This document shows positions 32,454 through 35,820 of a DNA stretch of 64,000 nucleotides, piece by piece. The notes under the pieces are model-generated. The model did no database searches. It was not told the DNA's origin and was given only the letters and a program-made list of their open reading frames with translations. Location: the NCBI RefSeq assembly GCF_018326285.1, contig NZ_AP023362.1, forward strand, positions 3,286,001 to 3,350,000. The letters are read 5' to 3'. The position numbers and the translations under genes were made by a program. The DNA comes from Mycolicibacterium sp. TY81. GTDB lineage: Bacteria > Actinomycetota > Actinomycetes > Mycobacteriales > Mycobacteriaceae. Every line of letters starts with the position of its first letter. The stretch's first letter is position 1.

Positions 32454-34379
32454 TTACAGTGGCGGTGGGATGTCTTGTTGCTCTGCTGATTCGGCGGCCG
32501 CCGCGGCTTCTGCGGCTTCTGCGGCTTCGCGTTCTTGGCGTTCTTTGCGCCGGCGGGCGAAGGCTTCTTGGGCGGCTTCGCGCTCGTCGATATCGGCTTG
32601 GTTGAGGGCGCGTTCGTAGGCGATCTGCTGGGCCTGGTTCTGGGCGCGGGTGCGGCGCCGGATGGGCATCATCACACCCCGGCCAGGAGCCGGTGGGGCG
32701 TCCAGATCGGTGTCCTCTGGCGGTGGGTTCGGCAGCGGGGTGTCGGTGACCGTGCGAGGAAACAGGATTCGACTTTCCGGCACGCTGATGTAGGTGTGGC
32801 CGGTGGGTGCGGTCCACACAATCGTCCCGTCAGGCTGTTGACGGTCACTCCAGCCATCCGGCCCGCCGTAGAACGTTTTGAGCAGGTGGTGTTTGCGGCA
32901 CTTCGGGCTCAGGTTGCCCGGATGCGTCGGCCCGACCGGCCACGCAATCGTATGGTCCACATCGCAGGCGGTGGCAGGCTGATCACAGCCCGGGAACATG
33001 CACGTCATGGCCCGCACCCGGACGAATTCATCCATCGCCGCCGTGGGCCGGTACCGCGGCACCTCATCCAGATCCGCGGCCGAGGCGACGGTGCGGACCT
33101 TCGCACCGCGGGCCACCAGATCGGCGAGCACCGCCGGGGGCACCACGCCGCCGCCGAGGACATAACCGACCGGGGTGCATACCGGCGCCGGGGGCTTGGT
33201 GGAAGTCGGAGCGGAAGTCGGGACCGGCGGGTGCGCCGCATGAGCTTCAGGGGTGGACGCCGACTCAGCCGCCGGAGCAGGTGTATGCGCGGGTCTGCTG
33301 GCCGGCACTGGCGTGGACGTGCTGTCGCCGGCCCGTTCGTCCCCAGCAGGGGTCGAGGCATCGGCAGACCCCGAGTCGGCCGCCGACGCAGGCGCGGGCA
33401 TCGGCGCCATGTCATCCGCCGGCGCGGGCTCAGGCTCAGGCTCGGGTGTGAAGACCGGCTCAGGCGCGGGATCCGGTTGTGGTGCGGGATGCGGTTCTCG
33501 CGCCGGAGTCGGGGTCTGAGGCGCGGCCGGATCCCCGTGCAACAGCGGATCCGCCACCGGCACCGGCAGCTGATCGGTGAGCACATGAATCACCACCGCC
33601 GCCGCCCGCGCATCCGGCCCAGCCGCCGGGCAATCGGGATTGCCGCACTGGCACGCGAGCCGATCCCCACGGGCCGCCAACACCCCGAGCGCGTCAGCAC
33701 GCCGCTGCCCGAACGTCCGCGGATCGTCCTCACACACCTGCCGGGCCATCTCGTCCAGCACCCGATCCAGCAACTCGGCATCGGTGGCCAACAGCGCACC
33801 CCAGATCGACGCCACCCCGGTCTCATCATCGGGCTTACCCACCCCGACCCCACGCCGGCGCGCGGCCGAGCGCACCTTCAAAACAGCGGCCGGGTCGAAC
33901 TTCTGCACCCAACCGTCGATCTTGCGTTCAATCTTCTTGCGCGACAACCCCGCCCACTCCGACAGCGCCCCCGCCAACGCAACATCGATCACCGCCAGCG
34001 TATTGGGATCCTCCACCAAACGGGTGCGCCAACAGATCGTCCCGACCGTCCGCGCCGACACCCCACCATCAGCGAACACCGCCGCCACCTTCGGCAGGCG
34101 GAAGCGCAACGCGACCGCAATCGACAACTGCCCCGACGCTTCACGCTTCCCGATCCCCAGCGCCGCCCCCACCTCGGCGACCGCAGCATCCCACCCATCA
34201 CAGGCCCACCACTGCCGGCCATCTTCGTCATCGACACGCAACGCCACCAGATCCGCGATCGCCCGAAACTTCCCGCACTCAGCGACATTCGACACCCGCG
34301 CGAAATGCACCACCGCGTCGACCACAGAGGCATCGTGAACCAGCACACCACCGGCCCCGACACCCACATGTTCGAACAT
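32454..34379 (-). CDS. DUF222 / HNH endonuclease protein (13E12 repeat family), promoter displaced by an IS
   Basis: 641 residues. DUF222 occupies about 1-270. A Pro/Ala/Glu-rich linker (about 290-400) follows, then the HNH nuclease region near 480-525: CMFPGCDQPATACDVDHTIAW, an Asn in HPGNLSPKC and KHHLLK, all key residues present. The tail is charged and alanine/glutamate-rich (REAAEAAEAAAAAES). M. tuberculosis relatives are LexA-controlled and lie in REP13E12 repeats. The coding frame is intact, but an ISL3 element inserted at its first codons has removed the upstream half of its SOS box and its promoter. Confidence 0.88.
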   Translation of the reverse strand: MFEHVGVGAGGVLVHDASVVDAVVHFARVSNVAECGKFRAIADLVALRVDDEDGRQWWACDGWDAAVAEVGAALGIGKREASGQLSIAVALRFRLPKVAAVFADGGVSARTVGTICWRTRLVEDPNTLAVIDVALAGALSEWAGLSRKKIERKIDGWVQKFDPAAVLKVRSAARRRGVGVGKPDDETGVASIWGALLATDAELLDRVLDEMARQVCEDDPRTFGQRRADALGVLAARGDRLACQCGNPDCPAAGPDARAAAVVIHVLTDQLPVPVADPLLHGDPAAPQTPTPAREPHPAPQPDPAPEPVFTPEPEPEPAPADDMAPMPAPASAADSGSADASTPAGDERAGDSTSTPVPASRPAHTPAPAAESASTPEAHAAHPPVPTSAPTSTKPPAPVCTPVGYVLGGGVVPPAVLADLVARGAKVRTVASAADLDEVPRYRPTAAMDEFVRVRAMTCMFPGCDQPATACDVDHTIAWPVGPTHPGNLSPKCRKHHLLKTFYGGPDGWSDRQQPDGTIVWTAPTGHTYISVPESRILFPRTVTDTPLPNPPPEDTDLDAPPAPGRGVMMPIRRRTRAQNQAQQIAYERALNQADIDEREAAQEAFARRRKERQEREAAEAAEAAAAAESAEQQDIPPPL

Positions 34380-34383
34380 GTGT
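34376..34383. repeat. Left target-site duplication of the ISL3 element
   Basis: ACATGTGT directly precedes the left inverted repeat and recurs at 35781-35788 after the right one. Eight bp is the usual ISL3-family duplication length. Confidence 0.85.
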
Positions 34384-35780
34384 GGCGCTCCACGGGTTTT
34401 CGTGGGCGCCTTTGCGCTGTTCAGGGGCTATTTTAGGTTGTGCGCCTGGGGTTTTGAGCGTGTCGGCGGCGAGTTGAAGGACGCGCACGCGGTGTCCCTC
34501 TAGGTTTCGGGGTTACCACACCAACCTCAACCGCCAGGAACGATCCGCGTGCGCGTCAGTACTGCATTTAACCGAATACTTCAGGTCCCCGGAGCCAACG
34601 TCACCGATGTCACCATCGGCGACCGCGATATCGAAGTCACCGTCGGCCTTAAAGCCCGCTCGATGCGCTGCCCGTGCGGCAAACGTGTGCGGGCCGGTTA
34701 TGACCGCCGGCGCCGGCGCTGGCGCCATGTGGATCTGGCCTGCAAGAAACTGTGGCTGGTCTACGACATCCGCCGCACGAACTGCCCACGCTGCGGCATC
34801 GTCACCGAGCAGGTGCCGTGGGCTCGTCCCGGTGCCCGATTCACCCGAGACTTCGAAGACACGGTGCTCTGGCTGGCCCAACGCACCGACCGCACCACCG
34901 TGGCCACGCTCATGCGGTGCGGCTGGGAATCGGTCACCGCCATCATCAACCGCGGTGTCGACGAACTGCTCGACCAACGACGACTCACAGACCTGTACCG
35001 GATCGGCGTCGACGAAATCTGCTACCGCCACCCGCACAAATATCTGACCATCGTCGGCGACCACGACACCGGCACCGTCATCGGAGTCCAGCCCGGACGC
35101 AGTGAAGAATCGCTATCGAAATTCTATGAACAACAACCTGATTCGACACTAGAGACGATCACCGCCGTGAGCATGGACGTGAGCAAGGCGTTCCGCGGAG
35201 CCACCCGAACCCACCTACCGGAAGCCACCATCTGCTTTGACCCGTTCCACATCATGCAATGGGTCAACCGGGCATTGGACCGGGTCTTCGCCGCCGCCGC
35301 CAGCGGACCGGACAAAGTCGCCATGACCTCAGCGCAGTGGCGCCAGACCCGATGGGCGCTGCGCACCGGCGAAAACAAACTCACCGACAACAAACGTGAA
35401 CTGGTCAACCAGATCGCCCGCGCGAACCGTCACGTCGGCCGGGCCTGGGCCCTCAAAGAACAGCTGCGCGACCTGTATCGACTCCCACACGAACCCGGTG
35501 TCGCCCGTCAACGACTCAAAGCCTGGATCACCGCCGCCAAACGCAGCCGTATCCCGTCCTTCATCGAACTCGGCAAACGACTACAGGAACACTTCGACGC
35601 CGTCATCGCCGCCGTGGAACTCGGCATCTCCAACGCCCTCCTCGAAGGCATCAACGCCAAAATCCGACTCATCAACGCCCGCGGCTACGGCCACCACTCC
35701 GCCCGAACACTGACCTCAATGATCTATCTCTGCCTGGGCGGGCTCCACCCTCAGCTACCCACGAGAAGGTGAGGAGTAGC
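34384..35780 (+). mobile_element. ISL3-family insertion sequence, 1397 bp
   Basis: The ends are set by the 8-bp duplication ACATGTGT on both sides. The left end starts GGCGCTCCACGGG; the right end read inward starts GCTACTCCTCACC. Fifteen of the first 23 positions match, including a shared TCGTGGG at 17-23. The single transposase gene covers 34549-35772. Intact ends, a perfect duplication and an intact gene suggest a recent insertion. Confidence 0.88.
34549..35772 (+). CDS. ISL3-family transposase
   Basis: 407 residues. An N-terminal zinc-ribbon (RCPCGKRV, then NCPRCG) and helix-turn-helix region lead to the DDE core. The visible acidic positions are GVDEI near residue 150, CFDPFH near 230 and LLEGINAKIRL near 365. 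The last part, INARGYGHHSARTLTSMIYLCLGG, is typical of ISL3 transposases. No frameshift or stop interrupts it, so it may be active. Confidence 0.93.
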   Translation: MRVSTAFNRILQVPGANVTDVTIGDRDIEVTVGLKARSMRCPCGKRVRAGYDRRRRRWRHVDLACKKLWLVYDIRRTNCPRCGIVTEQVPWARPGARFTRDFEDTVLWLAQRTDRTTVATLMRCGWESVTAIINRGVDELLDQRRLTDLYRIGVDEICYRHPHKYLTIVGDHDTGTVIGVQPGRSEESLSKFYEQQPDSTLETITAVSMDVSKAFRGATRTHLPEATICFDPFHIMQWVNRALDRVFAAAASGPDKVAMTSAQWRQTRWALRTGENKLTDNKRELVNQIARANRHVGRAWALKEQLRDLYRLPHEPGVARQRLKAWITAAKRSRIPSFIELGKRLQEHFDAVIAAVELGISNALLEGINAKIRLINARGYGHHSARTLTSMIYLCLGGLHPQLPTRR

Positions 35781-35788
35781 ACATGTGT
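35781..35788. repeat. Right target-site duplication of the ISL3 element
   Basis: ACATGTGT, identical to 34376-34383. Joining the two flanks at this repeat restores TCGAACATGTGTTCGA. Confidence 0.85.
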
Positions 35789-35820
35789 TCGATTCTACCG
35801 CCAGATCCGACAAATGTCAC
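35787..35820 (-). promoter_or_regulatory. Orphaned promoter and half SOS box of the DUF222-HNH gene
   Basis: On the minus strand GTGACA (35815-35820), 17 nt and TAGAAT (35792-35797) form a strong promoter. The half box GTTCGA lies at 35787-35792. Before the insertion TAGAAT stood 7 nt from the ATG of the DUF222-HNH gene. It now points into the right end of the IS, antisense to the transposase. Confidence 0.75.

Follow-up and report, generated by a model that had tools for sequence, protein, structure and literature searches.

Why does an insertion sequence (IS) of the ISL3 family lie in the middle of a LexA box, the operator of the SOS response, at the very start of a DUF222 (13E12-type) gene, and is this site an accident or a choice? 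The question is raised by a window (the whole stretch of DNA analysed, 64,000 nucleotides) from Mycolicibacterium sp. TY81 (NZ_AP023362.1, positions 3,286,001 to 3,350,000). In the present study, the target, the register of insertion, an empty allele, the spread over several species and the absence of such a preference in the other ISL3 insertions examined were all directly observed. We consider it highly probable that the element belongs to an ISL3 lineage that chooses the actinobacterial LexA operator TCGAAC-N4-GTTCGA as its landing site, and that its transposase reads this palindrome directly. The features concerned are the following.

32454..34379, minus strand: DUF222 (13E12-type) gene, 641 amino acids, reading frame intact
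34372..34383: left portion of the divided LexA box, TCGAACATGTGT, including the ATG of the gene (34377-34379, minus strand); supported by the empty allele
34376..34383: left copy of the target-site duplication, ACATGTGT, 8 bp
34384..35780, plus strand: 1397-bp insertion sequence of the ISL3 family, present in the genome in three copies that are 100% identical
34384..34407, plus strand: left terminal repeat, beginning GGCGCTCC, imperfect, 15 of 24 positions matching the right end (row L167)
34549..35772, plus strand: transposase, 407 amino acids, GTG start, with ISL3-type zinc ribbon, helix-turn-helix and DDE domains
35757..35780, minus strand: right terminal repeat, ending in GTAGC, compared with the left end (row L167)
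35777..35792: right junction, TAGC followed by ACATGTGTTCGA, 10 of 12 box positions kept owing to the terminal bases of the element itself
35781..35788: right copy of the target-site duplication, ACATGTGT, 8 bp
35781..35792: right portion of the divided LexA box, ACATGTGTTCGA; supported by the empty allele
35792..35797, minus strand: promoter -10 element (TAGAAT), which the insertion has moved 1.4 kb away from the gene; paralogue G000:C1:2210005 keeps the layout
35815..35820, minus strand: -35 element GTGACA, 17 nt from the -10 element

A LexA box divided by an ISL3 element

The element is bounded on either side by a repeat, as the first-pass annotation of this window had stated; it is exactly 1397 bp long and the repeat 8 bp. 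Joining the flanks over a single repeat yields TCGAACATGTGTTCGA, which agrees with TCGAAC-N4-GTTCGA at 12 of 12 positions, confirming that excision with one repeat restores an exact SOS box. Within the window, 12 of about 64,000 16-mers reach 10 of the 12 box positions and none reaches 12; given this background, and with the remaining two copies of the element likewise situated in perfect boxes, the box is not a product of chance. The transposase is assigned to ISL3 by the NCBIfam model NF033550 (296.7 bits, cut-off 180) and carries the domains DDE_Tnp_ISL3 (PF01610; 2.9e-59, 201.2 bits, cut-off 23) and HTH_Tnp_ISL3 (PF13542; 1.7e-15), with Zn_ribbon_ISL3 (PF14690) slightly under its cut-off (25.2 bits against 25.5). 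The Pfam scan of this transposase gave no domain other than the ISL3 ones, and a sequence search for solved structures found no relative of it. In its transposase domains (NF033550, PF01610), its size of approximately 1.4 kb, its terminal inverted repeats and its 8-bp target duplication, the element resembles the ISL3 family as it is known.

As the annotation had proposed, we looked for an uninterrupted allele. A search of 297 genomes of the genus with 1012 bases of right flank, starting at 35789, located one in a related species, and the annotation's own refuting condition, that the intact box is missing from all related strains, does not hold. The best match outside the element's own genome is G238, with 93% identity along 2.2 kb of the right side; on the left, the locus retrieved covers 885 bases of the gene's start, which are 84% identical. 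The orthologous junction of G238 carries TCGAACATGTGTTCGA uninterrupted. The same place without the element reads TCGTACATACGTTCGA in G165 and TCGAACATATGTTCTA in G173.

The same target in the host genome and in other species

The host genome (G000, 6.47 Mb) contains three copies of the element, 100% identical over 1397 bp, and all three lie in perfect boxes. Their target duplications differ (ACATGTGT, ACACGTGT and ACTAGTGT), and the insertion point is common to them, TCGA^ACNNNNGT^TCGA. One of the other two copies is at a DUF222 paralogue (84% amino acid identity) and one at another DUF222 gene (L037).

A wider set of sites was assembled from a DNA search of the 297 genomes, a contig scan with the transposase (four records, from Mycobacterium lehmannii, Mycolicibacterium neoaurum, a metagenome-assembled genome and M. 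pyrenivorans) and a search of 396 genomes with the left-end pattern (61 places in 23 genomes). After repeated flanks had been merged, among them those of L055, which equal those of L048, there were 76 distinct rows (L numbers), each a site or a single end; two left-end places (G316 and G368), whose upstream letters are identical to L046 and L047, were left out. Two flanks were available for 30 copies in 11 mycobacterial genomes, including the three of the host genome and excluding L049, a nested partial copy. The box match of these 30 sites was 12 of 12 in 15, 11 in eight, 10 in four, 9 in two and 8 in one, so that 27 of them match at 10 or more positions; the best register coincides with the centre of the target duplication (offset 0) in every one, and the 8-bp duplication is exact in all except L056 and L105. 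When all ends were counted, these 30 included and L049 excluded, at least 5 of 6 positions agreed in 56 of the 65 left halves and, on the right, in 39 of 40. Outside the mycobacteria, a relative with 64% amino acid identity on the Rhodococcus opacus plasmid pCP54 (CP129000.1, L139) lies in TCGAACTTATGTTCGA, a box matching at 12 of 12 positions. This box ends 115 bp before the annotated nrdH gene.

Since all the copies of the host genome and 27 of the 30 two-flank copies lie in boxes, the lineage is better described as operator-targeting than as the source of a one-off insertion. Thus, the earlier interpretation stands in one part, namely that insertion in an SOS box, whose empty allele exists, split the promoter from the gene; its picture of a single accident in one gene does not.

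Other clades of the ISL3 family

The controls were 38 loci of other ISL3 clades, of which 26 with recognisable ends (duplication and repeat) were used and 12 were left out. Unlike the window lineage, which chooses the LexA operator, all 26 score at most 6 of 12 in register, the best score within 20 nt being 8. The mycobacterial ISL3-like insertions of other clades (L072, L076, L077 and L145, the first three assigned to ISL3 by DNA similarity and ends) reach at most 4 of 12. The sites of the other clades examined in this comparison are AT-rich or form another palindrome.

In a tree of 39 transposases, midpoint-rooted for drawing only, the window element, ten mycobacterial rows and the R. opacus relative form one group (support 100/100), and the next branch joins G706 (52% amino acid identity; site ACGAACTGACGTTCGG, 10 of 12; support 100/99). 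A second clade (G721, G758 and G759; about 36% amino acid identity) is placed far off, on a branch with elements of AT-rich sites (97/94), and its sites with two flanks are box-like in three of three cases (TCGAAACTGTGTTCGA, TCGCACATATGTTCTA and TCGAAGGTCAGTTCGA); L178, with one flank, was excluded from this count. The simplest reading of this distribution is that box targeting was gained twice in the ISL3 family, the alternative being repeated loss. A third clade (38-43% amino acid identity) targets another palindrome, roughly 50 bp long, and lies at its centre at all 12 loci with ends (L152-L155, L157, L158 and L169-L174, in genomes of family f15; L156 gave no ends), for example gagagcgacatgcctgagaggc ATATTTAT gcctctcaggcatatcgctc at L153. 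With a strict pattern of this palindrome, 0 to 8 intact sites were counted in four such genomes, and 0 in the host genome of the window element.

Predicted consequences for the window gene and its operator

The DUF222 domain of the window gene is matched by Pfam (PF02720, 8e-53); its HNH part has no Pfam match at E<=0.001, and a C..C..DH..N..HH pattern is visible by eye in the translation. On the strand of the gene, the rejoined site reads GTGACA, 17 nt, TAGAAT, 7 nt (CGAACAC) and ATG, and the corresponding sequence at G000:C1:2210005, a paralogue in the host genome whose box is intact, is GTGACA-17-TAGACT-7-ATG. This promoter reading, a leaderless type that the first-pass annotation had proposed, is supported because the paralogue keeps the same spacing. 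The frame of 641 amino acids is open and the -10 and -35 elements lie beyond the IS, in agreement with the claim of an intact gene whose promoter and half box are 1.4 kb away. With promoter and operator parted from the ATG, SOS control of this gene would be lost, and its expression would now come from read-through or from a promoter in the left end of the element. Many of the targeted DUF222 genes start within the box itself (ATGTTCGA), so that their proteins begin MFE or MFD; the ATG of the window gene is at 34377-34379. With such box-internal starts, the operator encodes the N-terminus, and the product is probably leaderless.

The two junctions are not equivalent. At the left junction of the window, on the gene side that retains the ATG, the box score falls to 8 of 12; at the right junction, with the promoter and the right half, it is 10 of 12, since the element ends in TAGC. 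Of the 30 copies in the mycobacterial branch, 22 have a right junction at which the terminal [TC][AC]GC restores 10 or 11 of 12 positions, compared with at most 8 at any left junction. The half-site TCGCAC is also found in natural targets. LexA may continue to control a gene or promoter to the right of a copy, whereas one to the left, such as the window gene, may escape it. This re-creation of the operator is offered as a lead, since a single ancestral end underlies it and L139, L150 and L160 lack it. A polarity of the ends derived from half-site mismatches (perfect halves: left 37 of 65, right 28 of 40) was also considered and dropped, the difference being too weak.

Mechanism of targeting and alternative explanations

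The two strands are cut 8 bp apart, symmetrically about the operator dyad (TCGA^ACNNNNGT on each strand), with duplication of ACNNNNGT, and from this geometry we infer that the transposase itself recognises the palindrome as its target DNA. The cuts at TCGA^AC and GT^TCGA fall within the half-sites, and the strand-transfer complex shares its centre with the operator. The half-sites of the operator are held by LexA. Because the cuts fall within these LexA-held half-sites and the centre is shared, a LexA-bound box should be blocked; it would be closed to the transposase, and insertion would be likelier with LexA off, as in the SOS response. Provided that direct reading is correct, LexA would shield the sites and DNA damage would open them. 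A wider proposal is that transposase and LexA compete for the operator, that DNA damage opens the sites and thereby gates the dispersal of an element without an SOS promoter of its own, that the right end rebuilds the operator, so that this side may stay under LexA, and that the targeting evolved at least twice. Taken as a whole, this is a tentative and rather doubtful proposal.

Of the two mechanisms considered for the choice of site, recognition of the palindrome by the transposase itself seems likelier to us than attraction of the enzyme to LexA on its operator. LexA bound at the operator might attract the transposase, which would then integrate there; most targets do have the sequence of LexA boxes, many of them at SOS-type genes, and a host protein shared by all would allow two separate ISL3 clades to have box-like sites. 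Against this guidance, all 30 two-flank insertions are at the operator dyad, inside the bases that LexA should cover, whereas the protein-guided elements known to us insert beside the bound protein. Moreover, the transposase has ISL3 domains only in Pfam, and a third clade of the family uses a different long palindrome, again at the dyad; an enzyme with these domains alone and a relative of other palindromic specificity fit direct reading. We regard guidance by LexA as unlikely. Selection could also imitate targeting, if random insertions were kept only in SOS promoters, where loss or change of a gene is harmless or useful, and many targeted genes do belong to large DUF222 families that are perhaps dispensable. 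However, any position in a promoter would then suffice, while the register is identical to the base at 30 of 30 sites, and the four mycobacterial insertions of other ISL3 clades stay at or below 4 of 12, which makes this explanation very improbable. The same small weight is given to a spread of the copies through duplication of DUF222 loci in which the element was already present. Next to two of the three host copies are DUF222 paralogues with 84% identity to each other, and flanks are similar in L080 and L104 and in L079 and L099, but the target duplications of the host copies differ despite identical 1397-bp sequences, and the targets extend to polymerase genes, DUF3072 and the plasmid site before nrdH. 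A single chance insertion in one SOS box, the version of the first-pass annotation, is what the window site would suggest if it were seen alone; it is refuted by the box insertion of all three copies and of those in other species, and we attach practically no probability to it.

Several points weigh against operator targeting by direct reading. Three of the 30 two-flank sites fall below 10 of 12 (L057, L117 and L105, the last with a 1-bp indel), and nine of the 65 left halves match at fewer than 5 of 6 positions (L057, L063, L066, L093, L096, L108, L111, L117 and L127). Insertions that share a genome, or come from related species, are not entirely independent observations. Of the 72 sites surveyed for neighbouring genes, 42 have one flank only, and fewer than half have a recognised SOS-type neighbour. 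The argument for direct reading is drawn from geometry.

Genes at occupied and intact boxes

At these 72 sites, we surveyed open frames whose start is no more than 60 nt away. Frames resembling DUF222, DnaE2, DinB or radical-SAM proteins were found at 25 of them, including 14 of the 30 two-flank sites (the DUF222 match of L080 being weak). Among ten neighbour pieces examined in Pfam, there were matches to DUF222, IMS and PHP, and others to DUF3072 and DUF6319; two of the ten had no match. The best NCBIfam model for L116 and L125 was an error-prone DNA polymerase (512 and 641 bits; as fragments, both are under the full-length cut-off), L132 is DNA polymerase IV (683.8 against a cut-off of 367) and L114 is a radical SAM protein of the Rv2578c family (501 against 430). 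The frame beside L160, and the frames of L051, L099 and L100 that are similar to it, are 13E12-like by eye, but a Pfam scan of the L160 frame and the L051 piece gave no match; they are excluded from the 25, and the count including them would be 28. At L116 (G293) and L125 (G361), the box with the copy is 24 nt before the gene for the error-prone polymerase, and these hosts may differ in damage-induced mutagenesis.

The host genome contains 18 exact box sites, 15 intact and three occupied. Twelve of the 15 intact boxes are at the starts of DUF222-type genes, seven of them assigned by Pfam (L181, L182, L184, L187, L189, L190 and L193), two (L004/1510619 and L039/2210005) being paralogous to the window gene and three (L183, L191 and L192) recognised by eye from an N-terminus shared with L182. 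As to the other three, L185 precedes a radical-SAM gene, the frame at L188 is DUF222-like by eye with an 86-amino-acid piece that has no Pfam match, and the Pfam scan of the frame at L186 gave no match. The SOS regulon of this genome thus seems to be dominated by one multiplied gene family. When one mismatch was allowed, the box was found at 65 places, compared with 20 for a reversed control pattern, so that chance may account for many of the 50 places with one mismatch.

Relation to known systems

The window gene resembles the 13E12/DUF222 genes of M. tuberculosis, among which we take rv3074 to belong, in having a DUF222 domain and an SOS box at the start of the gene; it differs in that an element lies between promoter and start codon. 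Boxes bound by LexA in M. tuberculosis include those of dnaE2, lexA, recA and rv3074, the last bound by LexA in vitro, and rv3074 is counted there among the SOS genes (PMC8607333). The rv3074 box as printed in the text of that report, TCGAACACATGTTCGA, equals the rejoined box of the window on the gene strand at 16 of 16 bases, and LexA binding of the window box is predicted from this identity. The consensus is that of the mycobacterial LexA regulon, in which 25 functional SOS boxes are stated for M. tuberculosis (PMC8151990); here, the operator has become an insertion target.

Target-specific ISs are already known as a kind. IS1397, ISKpn1, IS621, ISPsy8, ISPa11, ISPpu9/10, ISRm22 and ISRm19 are reported to use a conserved, dispersed repetitive extragenic palindrome (REP) as their target; they belong to the IS3, IS110, IS4, IS256 and IS5 families, and ISL3 is not mentioned in the main text of that paper (PMC1525189). 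The likeness is that all or nearly all copies lie in one conserved palindrome (here 3/3 in the genome and 27/30 at 10 or more of 12 positions). The difference is that REPs are extragenic repeats, whereas the present target is a transcription-factor operator with 18 exact sites, 12 of the 15 intact ones being at DUF222-type starts. No IS targeting LexA boxes was described in the open PMC papers searched by title and abstract, a search without subscription papers or ISfinder. What is new is the class of target, the involvement of the ISL3 family and the apparent convergence.

The operators of a master stress regulator thus appear as chosen landing sites, clearly in one ISL3 clade and at three sites in a second. 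Mycobacterial SOS regulons would be edited by transposition, including copies at genes for error-prone polymerase and DNA polymerase IV, and the damage responses of close relatives may differ for this reason alone. The choice of target by a DDE transposase becomes open to experiment in a system whose 16-bp palindrome and competitor protein are both well studied, and a copy of this IS may serve as a natural marker of a likely SOS box.

Some individual copies deserve mention. One in G361 (L128) lies in a TCGAACGTATGT half-site approximately 155 nt away from a gene of the HelD/HelR type, which acts in RNA polymerase recycling. L090 was considered as a short non-autonomous copy and rejected, as it is a copy with an internal run of N. 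At the start of the M. pyrenivorans contig NZ_JACKSH010000151.1 (L049/L112), two left ends point in the same direction 96 bp apart, an arrangement read from the sequence as a copy beside or within a truncated copy.

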